From Candidatus Sumerlaeota bacterium (GTDB lineage: Bacteria; CG03; SLGR01), in NCBI GenBank assembly GCA_007136585.1, contig SLGR01000025.1:1-11033 (forward strand): a stretch of DNA of 11,033 nucleotides, given 5' to 3'. Shown here in pieces: positions 2,737 to 9,492 of the stretch. Position 1 is the first letter of the stretch; every line of letters starts with the position of its first letter. The position numbers and the translations under genes are program-made. The notes under the pieces were generated by a model. The model had not been told where the DNA came from and did not search any database. It saw only the letters and a list, made by a program, of their open reading frames with translations.

Positions 2737-4491
2737 ATGTTCACTCAAAAAACAGGGTTAAAGGATTTTCTTGCAGGCGAGAACCTTATAGACTCCCAGA
2801 CACTTAACAGCCTGGAACTCCGCGCAAAACAGCTTGGCAAATCCCTTGAACAGATCATCGTAGACACAGATACCATACCTAAAGGGGAGTTCCTTCAGGC
2901 CCTGAGCAGAAAATGGGATGTCAAACCCGTAGACCTGGACTCCCTTGAGATAGATACCGATTCGGCCCGTCTCGTACCTGAAACAACCGCCAGAAGATAT
3001 CTGGTTCTGCCCTTTGCAAAATCCGAGACTGAGCTTTACACCGCTATGGCCAGGCCCTGGGACCTTACCGCCATTGAGGACCTGCACCTTAGAACCGGAT
3101 ACAGCATAAAACCCTTCCTCGCTCTGCCGGCGGATATTGAGAAAGGACTGGCCTCTGTATTTACCCAGGACTCAAAGCTGAGTGATTATATTTCCGGCAT
3201 AGCGGGATCCGAAACTTCCCAGAAAGACCTTGTGGAGGAGGATGATGCCAGGGAAGAGATAACGATGGAAAGGTCTGGGGACGATGAAAAACAGGCCAAG
3301 CAGCTCGCAAACGCTATCATACTTGAGGGGCTGAAGCGGGGGGCCTCGGATATCCACATAGAACCCTTTGAGACAGTGCTTCTCATAAGATACCGCATAG
3401 ACGGACAGCTCCACAAATCATCGTTTAACGTGCCAAAGAAACTGGTTAACGCCATCATAGCCCGCATAAAGATAATGTCCCGGACAATGGATATTACCGA
3501 GAAAAGAATGCCCCAGGACGGCAGGATTCAGATAACTTTCCAGTCCCGCCCCATAGAGTTCAGGGTCAACACCATTCCCACGGCTTACGGTGAGAGCTGT
3601 GTAATGAGAATACTTGACCGAACAAGCATAAAGGTGGATCTTCCCAAGCTGGGATTTCTGCCGGATACGCTGAGTACTTTCCAGGAAATTTTGAGGAAAC
3701 CTTACGGGATAATACTGGTCTCCGGTCCGACCGGAAGCGGTAAATCCACGACCCTTTACTCATGTCTGAATTACCTGATACAGGAGTCTAAAAAGAACCC
3801 GGACGGAAAAGACCGGGACGTTACCCCGAAAAAAATACTTACTGCCGAAAACCCGGTGGAGTATGACCTCGGGGAAGTCGTACAGCTTAATATCAACCCG
3901 GAGATAGGGCTTAACTTTGCCGAGGCTATGAGAGCATTCCTCAGGCAGGACCCGGATATCATAATGGTAGGGGAAATAAGGGACCGTGAGACAGCCCAGA
4001 TAGCTATGGAAGCTGCCCTGACCGGCCACCTGGTCCTTTCCACAATACATACGAACGATTCCCCTACCTCGGTATCCAGGCTGGCCGAGATGCAGGTCCC
4101 GTCCTATCTTATATCTTCCACAATTGAGGCGGTCCTGGCCCAGAGATTGATACGCATGATCTGCCCCGCCTGCAGCAGGCGCCAGGAAAAGATCCCTCCG
4201 GAGCTTCAGGAGGAGTTCTCAAAACTGGGTATTCCCGAGGATCAGATCAAGATGCGGCAGGGAACCGGGTGCAAGGAGTGCGGGGGGTCAGGGTACAAGG
4301 GCAGAAGCGGAATACACGAGCTCCTGGTTATGGACAGTGACGTAAGGGATCTGCTGCTTGAAGAGATAGCTGCAGGGCCCCTGAAAAAACTTCTTGCCCA
4401 AAAGGGTATGCGGACCCTCTGGCAGGACGGCATAATGAAAGTGGCGCAGGGAAAGACAACTTACGAGGAAATTTTAAGGGTGAGTCAATAA
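2737..4491 (+). CDS. GspE/PilB family type II secretion / type IV pilus assembly ATPase
   Basis: This 584-residue hexameric motor ATPase acts on the cytoplasmic face of type II secretion or type IV pilus machines. Order of parts: N-terminal MshEN domain (about 5-145), an acidic linker (about 160-182), the N2 domain (about 185-300, with RGASDIHIEP at 201-210), then the RecA-like core. Walker A is GPTGSGKST at 330-338, the Asp box TAENPVEYDL at 369-378, Walker B ending in GEIRD at 412-416, and the His box STIHTND at 435-441. A tetracysteine zinc motif is complete (C476, C479, C512, C515). The MshEN c-di-GMP motifs are eroded: the Arg, Gly and Gln positions are not conserved. AGGG at 2724-2727 sits 9 bases before the ATG. 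No gspF/pilC, pseudopilin or secretin gene is in the window, so GspE versus PilB cannot be decided. Its stop overlaps the next start by one base. Confidence 0.93.
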   Translation: MFTQKTGLKDFLAGENLIDSQTLNSLELRAKQLGKSLEQIIVDTDTIPKGEFLQALSRKWDVKPVDLDSLEIDTDSARLVPETTARRYLVLPFAKSETELYTAMARPWDLTAIEDLHLRTGYSIKPFLALPADIEKGLASVFTQDSKLSDYISGIAGSETSQKDLVEEDDAREEITMERSGDDEKQAKQLANAIILEGLKRGASDIHIEPFETVLLIRYRIDGQLHKSSFNVPKKLVNAIIARIKIMSRTMDITEKRMPQDGRIQITFQSRPIEFRVNTIPTAYGESCVMRILDRTSIKVDLPKLGFLPDTLSTFQEILRKPYGIILVSGPTGSGKSTTLYSCLNYLIQESKKNPDGKDRDVTPKKILTAENPVEYDLGEVVQLNINPEIGLNFAEAMRAFLRQDPDIIMVGEIRDRETAQIAMEAALTGHLVLSTIHTNDSPTSVSRLAEMQVPSYLISSTIEAVLAQRLIRMICPACSRRQEKIPPELQEEFSKLGIPEDQIKMRQGTGCKECGGSGYKGRSGIHELLVMDSDVRDLLLEEIAAGPLKKLLAQKGMRTLWQDGIMKVAQGKTTYEEILRVSQ

Positions 4492-5630
4492 TGGATAACT
4501 GCAAAGAATGCGGAAAAATCATCTTATCTGATTACAGGTTCTGCCCCAGGTGCGGGCTCTCTATTTTCGGGGATGCCCCGAAGGGAAGAGATTCAAATGA
4601 CGGGAATGAACCGGAAGGCGATGCGGCCTCAAGGTTCTTCAGCCTGGCCAGAGAACTAAGCGAGGCCGCCAATATAGACGCGCTCCTTAAAAAAATCGGC
4701 GGGGCCATAGAAGAGATCCTCTGTGCGGAACGTTCTTCAATCCTTCTGCTGGACGAGACAGGGGAAAACCTTTATTTCAAGACCGCAACAGGTGAGGATA
4801 TATTAAAGACGCTGAGACTCCCCATCGGCAAAGGTATCGCCGGGTGGATAGCCCAGCACAGGGAATCCCTTCTGGTTAATGACCCCTACAGCGACGAGCG
4901 GTTCTCTCCGGAGACCGATAAGAAGACGGGTTTCAGGACAAAATCCATAGCCGGGGTGCCTATGATATTCAACTCCCGCCTTATAGGTGTATGCGAAGCT
5001 ATAAACAAGAAATCCGGAGATTTTACCGAGAGGGATATTGAGACTCTCTGCGGGTTTTCCGGGCTGGCGGCCGTCAGCATCGCCAATCTCCAGCTCCGGG
5101 CCGACCAGAAGAACTTATACTCAAACCTCATTGAGTTTATAGTGATGGCCGCCGACTCCCTTTCCCGGCCGGAACCATCTCCCCGGGGGCACGCCTGGGA
5201 AATGGCCCGGATGGCCCCTCTTATGGGGAAAGAACTGGGGATGCCGCTTCATACACAGCAGCTCCTCCAGCGGGCAGCGCTGATACACGATATAGGTTTC
5301 CTGGGACTTGAGTACCCGGAACTGATCGGCATAAACATCGACCGCAAGCTCAACAACGATGCCAGGTACCGGCTCCACACCGTGGTAGGATCCGAGATGA
5401 TCAAAGGGATAAAGGTGATGAAGGAACTTCGCCCCTTTATAAGCTGCCATCACAGGTACCGGAACGGCGAAGGGTTCCCGGAGAAGATAAGCCCGGAGAC
5501 TATTACCCTGGAAACCGAGATAATAGCCATACTTGAGGATCTGATGCTAAAAGGAGACAAAGCCGCGATTGATCCCGGGCGGTATACCGGCGAGGTTTTT
5601 GAAGCGCTTAACAAAATAACCTCCGGATGA
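4491..5630 (+). CDS. Zinc-ribbon, GAF and degenerate HD-GYP domain protein
   Basis: This 379-residue cytoplasmic protein has an unusual order of parts. A small N-terminal zinc ribbon has two CxxC pairs (C4/C7 and C18/C21). A GAF sensor domain follows (about 46-200), with the typical NKKSGDFTERD close at 172-182. An HD-GYP-type phosphohydrolase domain spans about 205-375. In it the metal-ligand histidines look present (H234, H266-D267, H296, H320-H321) and GEGFP at 326-330 stands for the GYP loop. However, the lysine of the HDIGK motif is F270, the usual glutamate after HH is absent, and the late VAD aspartate region reads ILED with the following Y-R motif missing. HD-GYP proteins hydrolyse c-di-GMP; this one may be weak or purely a sensor. 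AAGGGTG at 4476-4482 is its RBS inside the ATPase gene, so translation is coupled to it, suggesting it modulates that motor. Confidence 0.82.
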   Translation: MDNCKECGKIILSDYRFCPRCGLSIFGDAPKGRDSNDGNEPEGDAASRFFSLARELSEAANIDALLKKIGGAIEEILCAERSSILLLDETGENLYFKTATGEDILKTLRLPIGKGIAGWIAQHRESLLVNDPYSDERFSPETDKKTGFRTKSIAGVPMIFNSRLIGVCEAINKKSGDFTERDIETLCGFSGLAAVSIANLQLRADQKNLYSNLIEFIVMAADSLSRPEPSPRGHAWEMARMAPLMGKELGMPLHTQQLLQRAALIHDIGFLGLEYPELIGINIDRKLNNDARYRLHTVVGSEMIKGIKVMKELRPFISCHHRYRNGEGFPEKISPETITLETEIIAILEDLMLKGDKAAIDPGRYTGEVFEALNKITSG

Positions 5631-6616
5631 AGGTCCCCAGGAAAATTCTTACGGCATCCGGGATTTTCCTGAGCCTGCTTTTTCTTTATTTTGCTTTCAG
5701 AAATGTAGAATGGGAAAATATTTTCCTGCTTTTCCGGGAAACAAATTATTTTTACCTTATCCCAATAGTAGTTTTCTTCTTCGCGGATTTCTCGCTCAGG
5801 GCCCTGCGATGGAAATTTCTGCTCCTTCCTGTAAAAAAATGCGGACTGTTGAACCTGCTCAGCTCTGTATTTATAGGTTTTTTTGCCAATAACCTTCTTC
5901 CAATGCGGGCCGGGGAGGTGATCAGGGCGTTTCATATCGGCATCCGCGAAAAAATATCAAAGATGAGCGCCCTGGCTTCTATCGCCGTAGAGAGAGTTCT
6001 GGACGGATACACTGTGCTCCTGGCCCTTGTTATAACTTTTTTTATCTTTCCTTTTGACCCCGCAGTAAGAAATATCCTTATCGCGGGAGCGGCATTTTTC
6101 TCCGCCTGCGCTTTTATTTTCTACTTTCTCCTCTACTGCCGGGAGCTTGAGACAGGGATACCCGGTAAGATCAGGGGATACCTGGTCAAAAACAGGGAAA
6201 AAGCTGCCTGCTCAGTGGTATCCTCTTTCATTATAGGACTGGGAGGTCTTAAATCCAGGCAGCTGCTCCCTTCGGCTCTTCTTTCCGCAGTCTCCTGGGC
6301 CCTGAACGCCCTGGTCTTTCTCCTTACAGCAAGGGCTATGGGGATCGCGATATCCTACCCGGGAGCTGCTTTTGTAATGGCGGTCACATCTCTGGGTATA
6401 TCAATCCCGTCTTCACCGGGGTATATAGGCGTTTTTGAATATTTCGGGATACTCGCTGCTACAACCATAGGAATTCCGAGGAACGAGGCGGCGGGATACA
6501 TCCTTTTCTGCCGGATTATACAGACAGGTCTTATAAGTATCGCGGGAAGTTTCTTTCTTTTAAGGGAAAATATATCTGTTTTTCAGCTGGGCAGGAGGGC
6601 TGAAGCGGAAACCTAA
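5627..6616 (+). CDS. Lysylphosphatidylglycerol synthase TM-region / UPF0104 (YbhN-AglD-like) membrane protein
   Basis: This 329-residue polytopic membrane protein has roughly eight hydrophobic segments and no soluble catalytic domain. Family motifs are in order: LRALRWKFLL at 57-66, NNLLPMRAGEVIRA at 88-101, ERVLDGYTV at 122-130, and PSSPGYIGVFEYF at 261-273. This is the flippase-like module also found at the N-terminus of MprF. Stand-alone members are generally thought to handle lipid or lipid-linked intermediates, but the substrate of this one cannot be read from the sequence. Its ATG overlaps the preceding stop as ATGA, indicating translational coupling. There is no strong RBS of its own, so reinitiation is likely. 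Its stop overlaps the stop of the convergent gene by four bases. Confidence 0.88.
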   Translation: MKVPRKILTASGIFLSLLFLYFAFRNVEWENIFLLFRETNYFYLIPIVVFFFADFSLRALRWKFLLLPVKKCGLLNLLSSVFIGFFANNLLPMRAGEVIRAFHIGIREKISKMSALASIAVERVLDGYTVLLALVITFFIFPFDPAVRNILIAGAAFFSACAFIFYFLLYCRELETGIPGKIRGYLVKNREKAACSVVSSFIIGLGGLKSRQLLPSALLSAVSWALNALVFLLTARAMGIAISYPGAAFVMAVTSLGISIPSSPGYIGVFEYFGILAATTIGIPRNEAAGYILFCRIIQTGLISIAGSFFLLRENISVFQLGRRAEAET

Positions 6617-7062
6617 TAGTTGTTTTCCAGGGCTTTTTTAATCTCTTCCTCGGAGGTTATATAGGGCTCAACCTCAAATCCGGTAAGTATTGATATAGCC
6701 GAGCATATCTCGCTCTCCTGCGGGTCGGTCATAGCGATCAGAAGGGTCTCTCCTTTTTTTTCAAACGGAACAAGCATATGCTTTTCGGCAATACTCCTTG
6801 GTATAAGCCTTGTAAGCTCTCCCGGTATATGACCGTACTCGGAAACCTTTATGTACGGATGCCCCAGCTGTTTTCCTATAAGCGATAGGAGTATCTCCTT
6901 ATCAACGTACCCCATTTGGGTAAGGACCTCTCCCAGCCTGAGTTTTGACTCCTTCTGCTTCTCAAGAATCTCTTCAAGCTGGCTGTCATCAAGAAGGTTC
7001 AGGGATTTCAGTATCTCTCCCAGGCGCTGCTTTTTAATATTTTTTTTAGACTGCGGTACCAT
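6613..7062 (-). CDS. Stand-alone MshEN (T2SSE_N) domain protein, probable c-di-GMP receptor
   Basis: This 149-residue protein is a complete MshEN domain with no ATPase attached. In the MshEN family c-di-GMP is bound by two 24-residue motifs of the form RLGxxhhxxGhhxxxxLxxxLxxQ joined by a 5-residue spacer. Here motif one runs R13-Q36 (R13, L14, G15, L23, L24, L29, L33, Q36 match; N22 replaces Gly). The spacer is 37-41, and motif two runs R42-Q65 (R42, L43, G44, G51, L58, Q65 match). The C-terminal half shows the usual pattern, with LVPF (97-100), IAMTDPQES and ILTGFEVEPYI. In-frame TAG lies four codons upstream of none other than this ATG context (ATA TAG TAT CTT ATG), so no longer start exists. 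There is no Shine-Dalgarno, and a promoter lies immediately upstream. It probably acts as a diffusible adaptor or competitor for a GspE/PilB-type ATPase; the partner is inferred. Confidence 0.85.
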   Translation of the reverse strand: MVPQSKKNIKKQRLGEILKSLNLLDDSQLEEILEKQKESKLRLGEVLTQMGYVDKEILLSLIGKQLGHPYIKVSEYGHIPGELTRLIPRSIAEKHMLVPFEKKGETLLIAMTDPQESEICSAISILTGFEVEPYITSEEEIKKALENNY

Positions 7063-7115: not shown

Positions 7116-8237
7116 TCAAAGACTCTGCGAAAGAGGCAGTTTTACAGTAAACTCCGTCCCTTCCCCTTCCCGGCTTTCCACAGATATTTCACCCTTGTGA
7201 TGTTTAATTATATCCCTTACAGTTGACATACCCAGACCTATACCCTTCTGCTTGGTGGTATAGAGAGGCTCAAATAACCTTTCCAGGGTTTCCTTATTCA
7301 TCCCGGTTCCGACGTCTCTCAACTTAACTTCTACCGAATTTTCCTTACATTCAGCCTTTATAGTTATAGTTCCTCCATCCGGCATAGCTGATACAGAATT
7401 AGAAAGAAGATTCTGAAAAACCTGTTTCATCTTATCATAATCCGCCTCTACAAAGCAGCCCTCATCCGGGAGCGCAGATTCTACAAGAATATCCTGCGGT
7501 ATATTTGAAGTTCTTACCGCTTCTTCTATGGGGTCGCAGATATTAATTCTCTCTCTGGCTAAAGTGGTGGCTTTTGAGAAATTAAGCAGGTCTGAAAGTA
7601 TTCTTTCGGCCACTTCGGTTTCCATTGAAAGCGTCTCAATATACTCTTTCACTTCGGGCTCATCTGTATTTAAATAATTCTGAAGGTAGTAAACCGAGTT
7701 TCGTATATTTGTCAGGGGGTTTTTAAGTTCATGCCCGACCCCTGAAGCAAGTTTTCCGATAGCTGAAAGCCTCTCGTTTCGGAGAGCCAGATCACGAGCC
7801 TCCCTGAGTTTCCTGTTTGACTCTTCCAGTTCCTGCGTGTACCGGAGTTTCTCTTTCTCAAGACCCGCGATTTCCATGTTCTTTTTAACACTCCGCAGGA
7901 ACTCTCCGGTTTCAAACGGCTTAGTAATATAATCCGAGGCCTGAGCTTTTACAGCCTTTATCGGAACTTCCTGGCTGGCATACCCAGTTATCACCATTAC
8001 CTGGCTCTGATCCCCGTTCTTCTGAATCTCCCGAACATGCTCAATAAATTCCAGACCGTTCATATCCGGCATCCTTACATCCGTTATAATAAGCTCGTAA
8101 AACTCACTCTCTACCTCTTTAATTGCCTCACGGCAGTTATCTAAAGCTTTGACTTCATACCCTTCGCGTTTCAGCGCCTTTTCCAGGCTTTTGAGAAAAA
8201 GCCTGTCATCATCAAGTAAAAGTATCTTATAACTCAT
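7116..8237 (-). CDS. Hybrid receiver-histidine kinase (REC-HisKA-HATPase)
   Basis: This 373-residue soluble two-component protein begins with a receiver domain (about 3-120). It has an acidic pocket D9-D11, phospho-acceptor D53 in ITDVRMP, T84 and K106. A predicted coiled coil (about 125-160) leads to the dimerisation/phosphotransfer helix with H169 in GHELKNPLTNI. The ATP-binding domain follows, with the N box NLLSN (N276, N280), G1 box DVGTGM (D308, in place of the more usual DNG), F box LFEPLYTTK, and G2 GIGLGM (332-337). No membrane segment or DNA-binding domain is present, so it is a cytoplasmic relay element whose kinase output is probably gated by receiver phosphorylation. The start ATG is preceded on its strand by GGGG about 7 bases away. 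It lies 25 bases after the GAF-kinase gene, so the two are probably co-transcribed and may act as donor and receiver. Confidence 0.92.
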   Translation of the reverse strand: MSYKILLLDDDRLFLKSLEKALKREGYEVKALDNCREAIKEVESEFYELIITDVRMPDMNGLEFIEHVREIQKNGDQSQVMVITGYASQEVPIKAVKAQASDYITKPFETGEFLRSVKKNMEIAGLEKEKLRYTQELEESNRKLREARDLALRNERLSAIGKLASGVGHELKNPLTNIRNSVYYLQNYLNTDEPEVKEYIETLSMETEVAERILSDLLNFSKATTLARERINICDPIEEAVRTSNIPQDILVESALPDEGCFVEADYDKMKQVFQNLLSNSVSAMPDGGTITIKAECKENSVEVKLRDVGTGMNKETLERLFEPLYTTKQKGIGLGMSTVRDIIKHHKGEISVESREGEGTEFTVKLPLSQSL

Positions 8238-8262: not shown

Positions 8263-9492
8263 TCACTCCTTTAACTGCCGGCTGTATCCGGGCAGTTTTA
8301 CTATAAATTTTGTCCCTTTCCCCAGTTCTGATTCAACCTCTATTACACCTTCATGTTCCTTTATTATATTATAACTTATATACAGCCCCAGTCCGGTCCC
8401 GGAGCTCACTTGCCTGGTTGTGAAAAAAGGATCAAAAAGTCTGGTAAGGTTTACCGAGGGAATCCCCTGCCCGTTATCTTCTATACTGGTTATGATAAAC
8501 CCGTTTTCCTCAAGGGTACTGAAAAAGATCTCGCCCCTTTCTCTCTCATCCTCATTTATTGCGATTATTGAATTTAATGCCATATTCGTAAAAACCTGCT
8601 GAAGCTGGGCGGAGTTTCCCCAAACTGTAAGCGGTCTGGTAAGATCTTTTTTTACAGATATCCCGTGCTTCCGGGCCTGAGGGGAGACCAGAAGCAGAGC
8701 TTCCTCAATCACCTCGTTTATATCCAGGGCCTGCTTTGGACTTTCCTCTGATATCCTGGAATAGGAAAGCAGCTTCTGAACTATTTCCCTGCACTTTCTG
8801 GCAGCTTCCTGAATAACCTGCAGTGTTTCCCTGGTATCCTCATCCTTCTCATCAAACTCTATAAGAAGGGTCTGCACGCTTGTAAGTATAGCGCCCACAG
8901 GGTTATTTATTTCGTGGGCCATTCCTCCTGCGAGTGTCCCGATGGAAGAGAGCTTATCCGCCCGGGTCAGTTTCTCCTCCGTATCCTGCAAACGTTTCCT
9001 CATCCGGGAATGAATCCGGGTTTTTTTGAGCACTGTTGATAAACTTTCAGCAACAGACTCAGCTAATGTTATATCTTCTTCCGTAAAAGCCCCGGGAATT
9101 TTTTTATCTATATATATTAACCCTCTTATCCTGTTTCCCTGCCACATGGGGATACAGGCGGCGGCTCTTATCTTACTTGATAAGAGGTCGGTATCATAGG
9201 CAAACCGGTCATCCGCCAGGATATCGGAAACATAAATTGTCTTTCCGGTCTTCAGCGCTTCTTTCACAAAAGCCCGGCTCCTGAGTTTCTCCGCACCCGT
9301 CGTATCCCTGGATATTTCAGTATGCAGTTTTCCCTTACTATCCACCATAATAAAGCAACCTGAATCGGCTTTCAGGAGATCAATAACAGTATCAACACTC
9401 TTTGAAAGAAGCAGCCCGGTATCCGTCTCGGATACCATTAATTTCATTAACCCGGCCAACTCCGCTTCTCTTGAATTTTCTCTTACAGCCAT
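8263..9492 (-). CDS. GAF domain sensor histidine kinase
   Basis: This 409-residue cytoplasmic kinase has an N-terminal GAF domain (about 15-155; note GAFTEEDITLAESVAESL at 134-151, the usual closing helix), a short coiled-coil linker (about 155-182), and a HisKA/HATPase core. The phospho-acceptor is H193 in AHEINNP. The N box is FTNMALNS (N303, N307), G1 is EDNGQGI (338-344), the F box LFDPFFTTR is at 352-360, and G2 is SGTGLGL (364-370). All expected catalytic residues are present, so it should be active. No receiver, HAMP or membrane segment is seen; the signal is presumably a cytoplasmic small molecule or redox cue sensed by GAF. The only usable ATG is at 9492, because an in-frame TAG lies three codons upstream. 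AGGGG ends just 3 bases before it, a tight spacing, and it overlaps the stop of the ANL gene. The adjacent receiver-kinase is the obvious candidate partner, by inference. Confidence 0.92.
   Translation of the reverse strand: MAVRENSREAELAGLMKLMVSETDTGLLLSKSVDTVIDLLKADSGCFIMVDSKGKLHTEISRDTTGAEKLRSRAFVKEALKTGKTIYVSDILADDRFAYDTDLLSSKIRAAACIPMWQGNRIRGLIYIDKKIPGAFTEEDITLAESVAESLSTVLKKTRIHSRMRKRLQDTEEKLTRADKLSSIGTLAGGMAHEINNPVGAILTSVQTLLIEFDEKDEDTRETLQVIQEAARKCREIVQKLLSYSRISEESPKQALDINEVIEEALLLVSPQARKHGISVKKDLTRPLTVWGNSAQLQQVFTNMALNSIIAINEDERERGEIFFSTLEENGFIITSIEDNGQGIPSVNLTRLFDPFFTTRQVSSGTGLGLYISYNIIKEHEGVIEVESELGKGTKFIVKLPGYSRQLKE

Follow-up and report, generated by a model that had tools for sequence, protein, structure and literature searches.

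The stretch of 11,033 nucleotides analysed here (the window) carries a gene for a 149-residue protein made of an MshEN domain alone, facing the operon of a GspE/PilB-type ATPase whose own MshEN domain has lost the c-di-GMP contacts. This arrangement is a real, conserved and clade-specific variant. We propose, with a confidence that falls a little short of even, that the stand-alone gene encodes a single-domain c-di-GMP receptor, which would most probably act in trans on a type IV pilus/T2SS-like machine, with the neighbouring ATPase as the first candidate. The features concerned are listed in Table 1.

Table 1. Features of the window, with their positions, strands and supporting matches or sequences.
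Feature	Position	Strand	Evidence or sequence
GspE/PilB-type ATPase, degenerate MshEN, intact Walker A/tetracysteine	2737..4491	+	PF00437 9.8e-124, PF05157 4e-17
Degenerate motif region of the ATPase, residues 7-59	2755..2913	+	0/6 Arg/Gly/Gln contacts; NF053729 12.8 bits
Zinc-ribbon/GAF/degenerate HD-GYP protein	4491..5630	+	PF01590, PF13487; start overlaps ATPase stop
LPG_synthase_TM / flippase-like membrane protein	5627..6616	+	PF03706 1.5e-45; TIGR00374; conserved 8/8
Stand-alone MshEN protein, 149 aa	6613..7062	-	PF05157, NF053729, AlphaFold2 model, 8/8 order orthologs
c-di-GMP motif I, R13-Q36	6955..7026	-	RLGEILKSLNLLDDSQLEEILEKQ
5-residue spacer, residues 37-41	6940..6954	-	KESKL
c-di-GMP motif II, R42-Q65	6868..6939	-	RLGEVLTQMGYVDKEILLSLIGKQ
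Two histidine kinases (RR-histidine kinase nearest the MshEN gene)	7116-8237, 8263-9492	-	

The open reading frame of the stand-alone protein is real. PF05157 (MshEN) matches residues 79-149 (1e-15, 57.9 bits, for a cut-off of 23.1 bits), and no T2SSE ATPase core with Walker motifs is found in the protein by Pfam. The NCBIfam model NF053729, 'c-di-GMP_motif', matches residues 13-65 over its full length (model positions 1-53; 48.3 bits, E 6.5e-13, curated cut-off 38 bits), and the two 24-residue motifs with a spacer of exactly five residues are placed as in the preliminary description. The AlphaFold2 model of the protein alone has a mean pLDDT of 73.7, the N-terminal 60 residues being weaker; it contains a four-helix bundle and an alpha/beta subdomain, and its top Foldseek match is 5htl, i.e. 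MshE with c-di-GMP bound (TM 0.67). By sequence, motif layout and fold, the 149-residue protein is thus an MshEN domain protein, and it is no motor. All six polar or glycine contacts are present. Motif I departs from the published consensus at K19 (position 7) and N22 (in place of Gly at position 10), and motif II at T48 (position 7), Y52 (position 11) and I62 (in place of Leu), so that the protein lacks the full consensus, in which both motifs have Gly at position 10. A perfect motif is, however, perhaps unnecessary for c-di-GMP binding (PMC5013675), and the residues that are kept make such binding likely for the protein of the window.

The collection holds 16 genomes of the phylum, eight of them in the order of the window, which consists of uncultured bacteria and is labelled Elusimicrobia by NCBI. 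The stand-alone gene is present in all eight genomes of the order and in none of the eight other members of the phylum. No ortholog was found beyond the order in 386 genomes from 327 genera, where the best matches are nearly all N-domains of ATPase-sized proteins, and a scan of the contigs of named genomes retrieved only Elusimicrobia records and one weak match. Orthologs within the order are 53-60% identical to the protein of the window. In the two closer pairs of orthologs, dN is about 0.045 and 0.17 for a dS above 1, i.e. near saturation, a sign of purifying selection on the protein. The co-occurrence that had been asked for in related genomes is also observed, the stand-alone MshEN and the degenerate ATPase being found together in 8/8 genomes of the order; co-occurrence within one order is nevertheless one evolutionary event, not eight.

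The ATPase itself gives 552.6 bits with the PilB model TIGR02538, below the cut-off of 675.65. Its translation contains a Walker A motif (GPTGSGKSTT) and a zinc tetracysteine (two CxxC pairs), so the motor core looks intact and active. At its N-terminus, the positions aligned with the ligand contacts are G7/K9/A30 and S36/E38/K59, as first read, and the conclusion that these contacts are eroded holds, since none of the six is kept. ATPase orthologs do not exceed 15.5 bits on NF053729 where a score was returned. When six polar or backbone positions are counted per protein in the alignment, with Lys accepted for Arg, the Arg/Lys, Gly and Gln contacts are kept at 44/48 positions in the stand-alone proteins versus 0/45 in the ATPases. 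The model of the ATPase N-domain retains the MshEN fold (pLDDT 85.5, best match 5htl), and this domain is therefore folded but probably blind to c-di-GMP. Loss of the motif is common in GspE/PilB proteins, as in XpsE and in PilB of Xanthomonas and Pseudomonas (PMC5013675, PMC8389850), and its loss in the neighbouring ATPase need not be compensated.

The stand-alone gene was initially described as lying beside that of the ATPase. It does face the ATPase operon, in convergent orientation, but it is not adjacent to the ATPase gene, as two operon genes lie between them. The first of these encodes a protein whose HD-GYP domain has Phe for the Lys of HDxGK, Glu for the final metal-binding Asp and GFP for GYP in all aligned orthologs; this protein may be a further regulator acting on that motor. 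The LPG-synthase-like gene is the last of the motor operon, and its 3' end overlaps the MshEN gene at 6613-6616. The block formed by the ATPase, GAF/HD, LPG-synthase-like and convergent MshEN genes is found in 8/8 genomes of the order, divided between two contigs in G002 and G006, and the 3' ends of the MshEN gene and of the facing operon are separated by -4 to +2 nt, i.e. overlap or abut, in every one. This tail-to-tail linkage could be kept for mechanical reasons.

In the mechanism that we favour, the four-helix half of the free MshEN would bind one c-di-GMP between the two motifs, as in Vibrio cholerae MshE, and the alpha/beta half would serve as a docking surface, as it does for partner contacts in PilB/GspE. 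The protein would then act in trans on a pilus-type machine, the simplest target being the neighbouring motor, whose built-in N-domain keeps the fold but has none of the nucleotide contacts. Each genome of the order contains 3-13 GGDEF matches, nine of them in that of the window, which also encodes one PilZ protein. Nucleotide binding, the physical partner and the direction of the effect are what we infer; what is observed between the separate protein and the motor is a conserved gene linkage. A wider interpretation, possible but doubtful in our view, is that sensor and motor have been uncoupled into two genes that share one domain type; a free MshEN that binds c-di-GMP would then dock on the hexameric motor or on its stator, either in place of or beside the blind MshEN of the motor. 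Such an uncoupling would have happened in more than one lineage, namely in this order and in a GGDEF-containing pil operon of another small phylum, with the decayed-core proteins (see below) as possible intermediates.

The free MshEN could alternatively be a c-di-GMP receptor for another pilus component, such as a motif-bearing or other PilB, the PilM stator or PilC, its place by the ATPase being retained synteny. Such targets are available, as the genome of the window encodes four MshEN ATPases, two PilC-like platforms and one secretin. Another of its PilB proteins (contig C9) scores 62.4 bits on NF053729, above the small protein, and a further MshEN ATPase (C73) scores 43.9 bits despite the loss of the motif I Arg and Gly. 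Direct sensing by a motor has thus not gone from the cell, and the C9 PilB could respond to c-di-GMP itself. Moreover, the stand-alone domain is of the PilB type, and stop codons lying so close together in all eight genomes would make the two genes hard to separate. However, gene rearrangements across the order have changed the remaining neighbours and left this block intact, and we hold this explanation to be unlikely. The two PilC-like platform genes lie about 3 kb apart on another contig of this genome (G000:C64:5149-9827), outside the window.

That the free MshEN is a non-binding relic or a structural domain for protein-protein docking, no longer in need of c-di-GMP, like GSPII-A of Thermus PilF, seems to us distinctly improbable, but it has to be weighed against the contact residues of the whole order. 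The four losses counted in the stand-alone proteins are all Q36 to His, in half of the orthologs (G004-G007); position 10 of motif I (residue 22) is Asn or Asp in 8/8 and never Gly, and Val or Ile occupies two Leu positions of motif II among the orthologs. All eight are above the NF053729 cut-off (39.1-48.3 bits), several of them only just. The copy of G002 (L010:1438-1884, minus strand) is interrupted downstream of the motif region by two in-frame TAA codons, which could reflect either a pseudogene or an assembly error; they fit the relic reading. On the other hand, all eight orthologs retain G15, G44, Q65 and Arg or Lys at positions 13 and 42, purifying selection is strong, and the protein of the window has its full set of polar and glycine contacts. 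R42 is Lys in 6/8 orthologs; in GSPII-B of PilF, Lys and Leu replace the two Arg, and the affinity is still 6 nM (PMC11731258). In GSPII-A, a His at the matching Gln is one of the substitutions whose reversion was required for measurable binding (PMC12002112), and Gln-to-Glu mutants have been solved with c-di-GMP bound, according to PDB titles (9gl5, 9glg). Judging from these residues, c-di-GMP binding by the His36 orthologs is uncertain.

The last alternative, i.e. that the free MshEN serves the two upstream histidine kinases as an input or output module, is very improbable: the MshEN gene is on the same strand as the RR-histidine kinase gene, with a 53-bp gap, so that both probably belong to one transcript in the genome of the window, but the relatives with enough upstream sequence (the shortest contigs being left out) have MazG, ferritin/rubrerythrin or other genes there and no kinases, and in G002 a receiver-domain gene lies upstream with another gene in between. 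As the outer neighbours differ and the operon is constant, the association with the kinases appears local and that with the motor operon old; a functional tie to the kinases was dropped for this lack of conservation.

The proposed receptor of the neighbouring motor can be compared with several known systems. It shares with V. cholerae MshE (PDB 5HTL; PMC5013675) the whole domain, both 24-residue motifs, the 5-residue spacer and the fold, but the domain is the N-terminus of the motor there and a free 149-residue protein here. In the PilB-PilZ-FimX system of Xanthomonas and Pseudomonas (PMC8389850), the MshEN of the motor is degenerate, the Xanthomonas PilB N-domain also being devoid of the motifs, and a separate protein reads c-di-GMP, as we propose here; FimX, however, reads it by an EAL domain and reaches PilB via PilZ, whereas the separate protein of the window is itself an MshEN. 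Thermus thermophilus PilF, with its GSPII-A/B/C domains (PMC11731258, PMC12002112), likewise combines binding and non-binding copies in one machine, but all in one polypeptide, whereas the copies are split over two genes here. Finally, MshEN domains outside motors are found in the Bdellovibrio response regulator Bd2402 (PMC5013675) and in small MshEN ORFs (156-322 aa), most of which, in contrast to the single domain of the window, are fused to further domains or are longer. The relay from c-di-GMP-bound MshEN to the pilus motor has been described as poorly understood (PMC11656802). With the receiving domain as a separate soluble protein of 149 residues and the copy of the motor probably blind, this question becomes testable, since ATPase assays can be run with or without the receptor and the protein that it binds can be sought directly. 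If true, our proposal would extend the PilZ-FimX principle beyond Gammaproteobacteria, with a different receptor.

A search of the literature outside subscription journals found no description of a 'stand-alone MshEN', and the literature search found nothing on Elusimicrobia pili with c-di-GMP. Of about 150 top-scoring c-di-GMP-motif matches listed for the 386 genomes, one frame is of 200 aa or less, about a dozen are of 200-330 aa and the others are longer. Near the small MshEN ORFs of 156-322 aa, ATPase-core genes, which have no MshEN of their own, were seen in 1/12 loci opened. In another small phylum, L103:4604-10876 (minus strand) contains a complete-looking pil operon, PilM-N-O-Q-GGDEF-MshEN-PilB-PilC (apart from PilB, the genes were named by inspection of their translations), with a stand-alone MshEN of 177 aa that scores 58.3 bits on the c-di-GMP motif. 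A free MshEN adjoining PilB is kept in 4/5 genomes of this phylum (relatives L122-L124). The L103 PilB lacks the Arg and Gly in both motifs, yet it still scores 49.3 bits on NF053729, which makes this operon only a partial parallel to the window. A small MshEN frame of G228 (L102) was rejected as a stand-alone case, since it belongs to an ATPase truncated at the end of the contig.

The trees bear on the origin of the free domain. The tree of the stand-alone protein and that of the ATPase N-domain both pair G004 with G006 and G005 with G007, as vertical descent predicts. In a wider MshEN tree, the long branches of which call for caution, the stand-alone domains are placed apart from the N-domain of the neighbouring ATPase, itself on its own long branch. 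When the latter is left out, in a smaller tree, they join with 99/95 support the L105/L106 group of another phylum. Here, as in L162 and L164, proteins (L105:615-2051, L106:206-1738) combine an intact-looking MshEN with a shortened and decayed T2SSE core, matched by PF00437 only from position 115 on; decayed ATPases of the L105/L106 type are kept in 4/5 genomes of their phylum. This grouping points, though it is no proof, to an origin of the stand-alone protein from a motor paralog through loss of the motor part.

The initial idea that c-di-GMP sensing moved from the motor to a small protein is therefore only partly sustained: the free domain has the motif that its neighbour has lost throughout the order, but it does not look like the own domain of that motor relocated, and motif-bearing motors in the same genome, the frequency of motif loss and the His36 orthologs all speak against a simple transfer. 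The L105/L106 decayed ATPases were also considered as sharing the gene cluster of the window, and this was dropped, no synteny being found. In G003 (contig C76; L048:2500-3100, minus strand), which belongs to the same order as the window, a PilB paralog is interrupted between its core and its MshEN, the latter a 165-aa frame; fusing the halves takes two changes of frame, and not a single frameshift, so this could be a natural fission.
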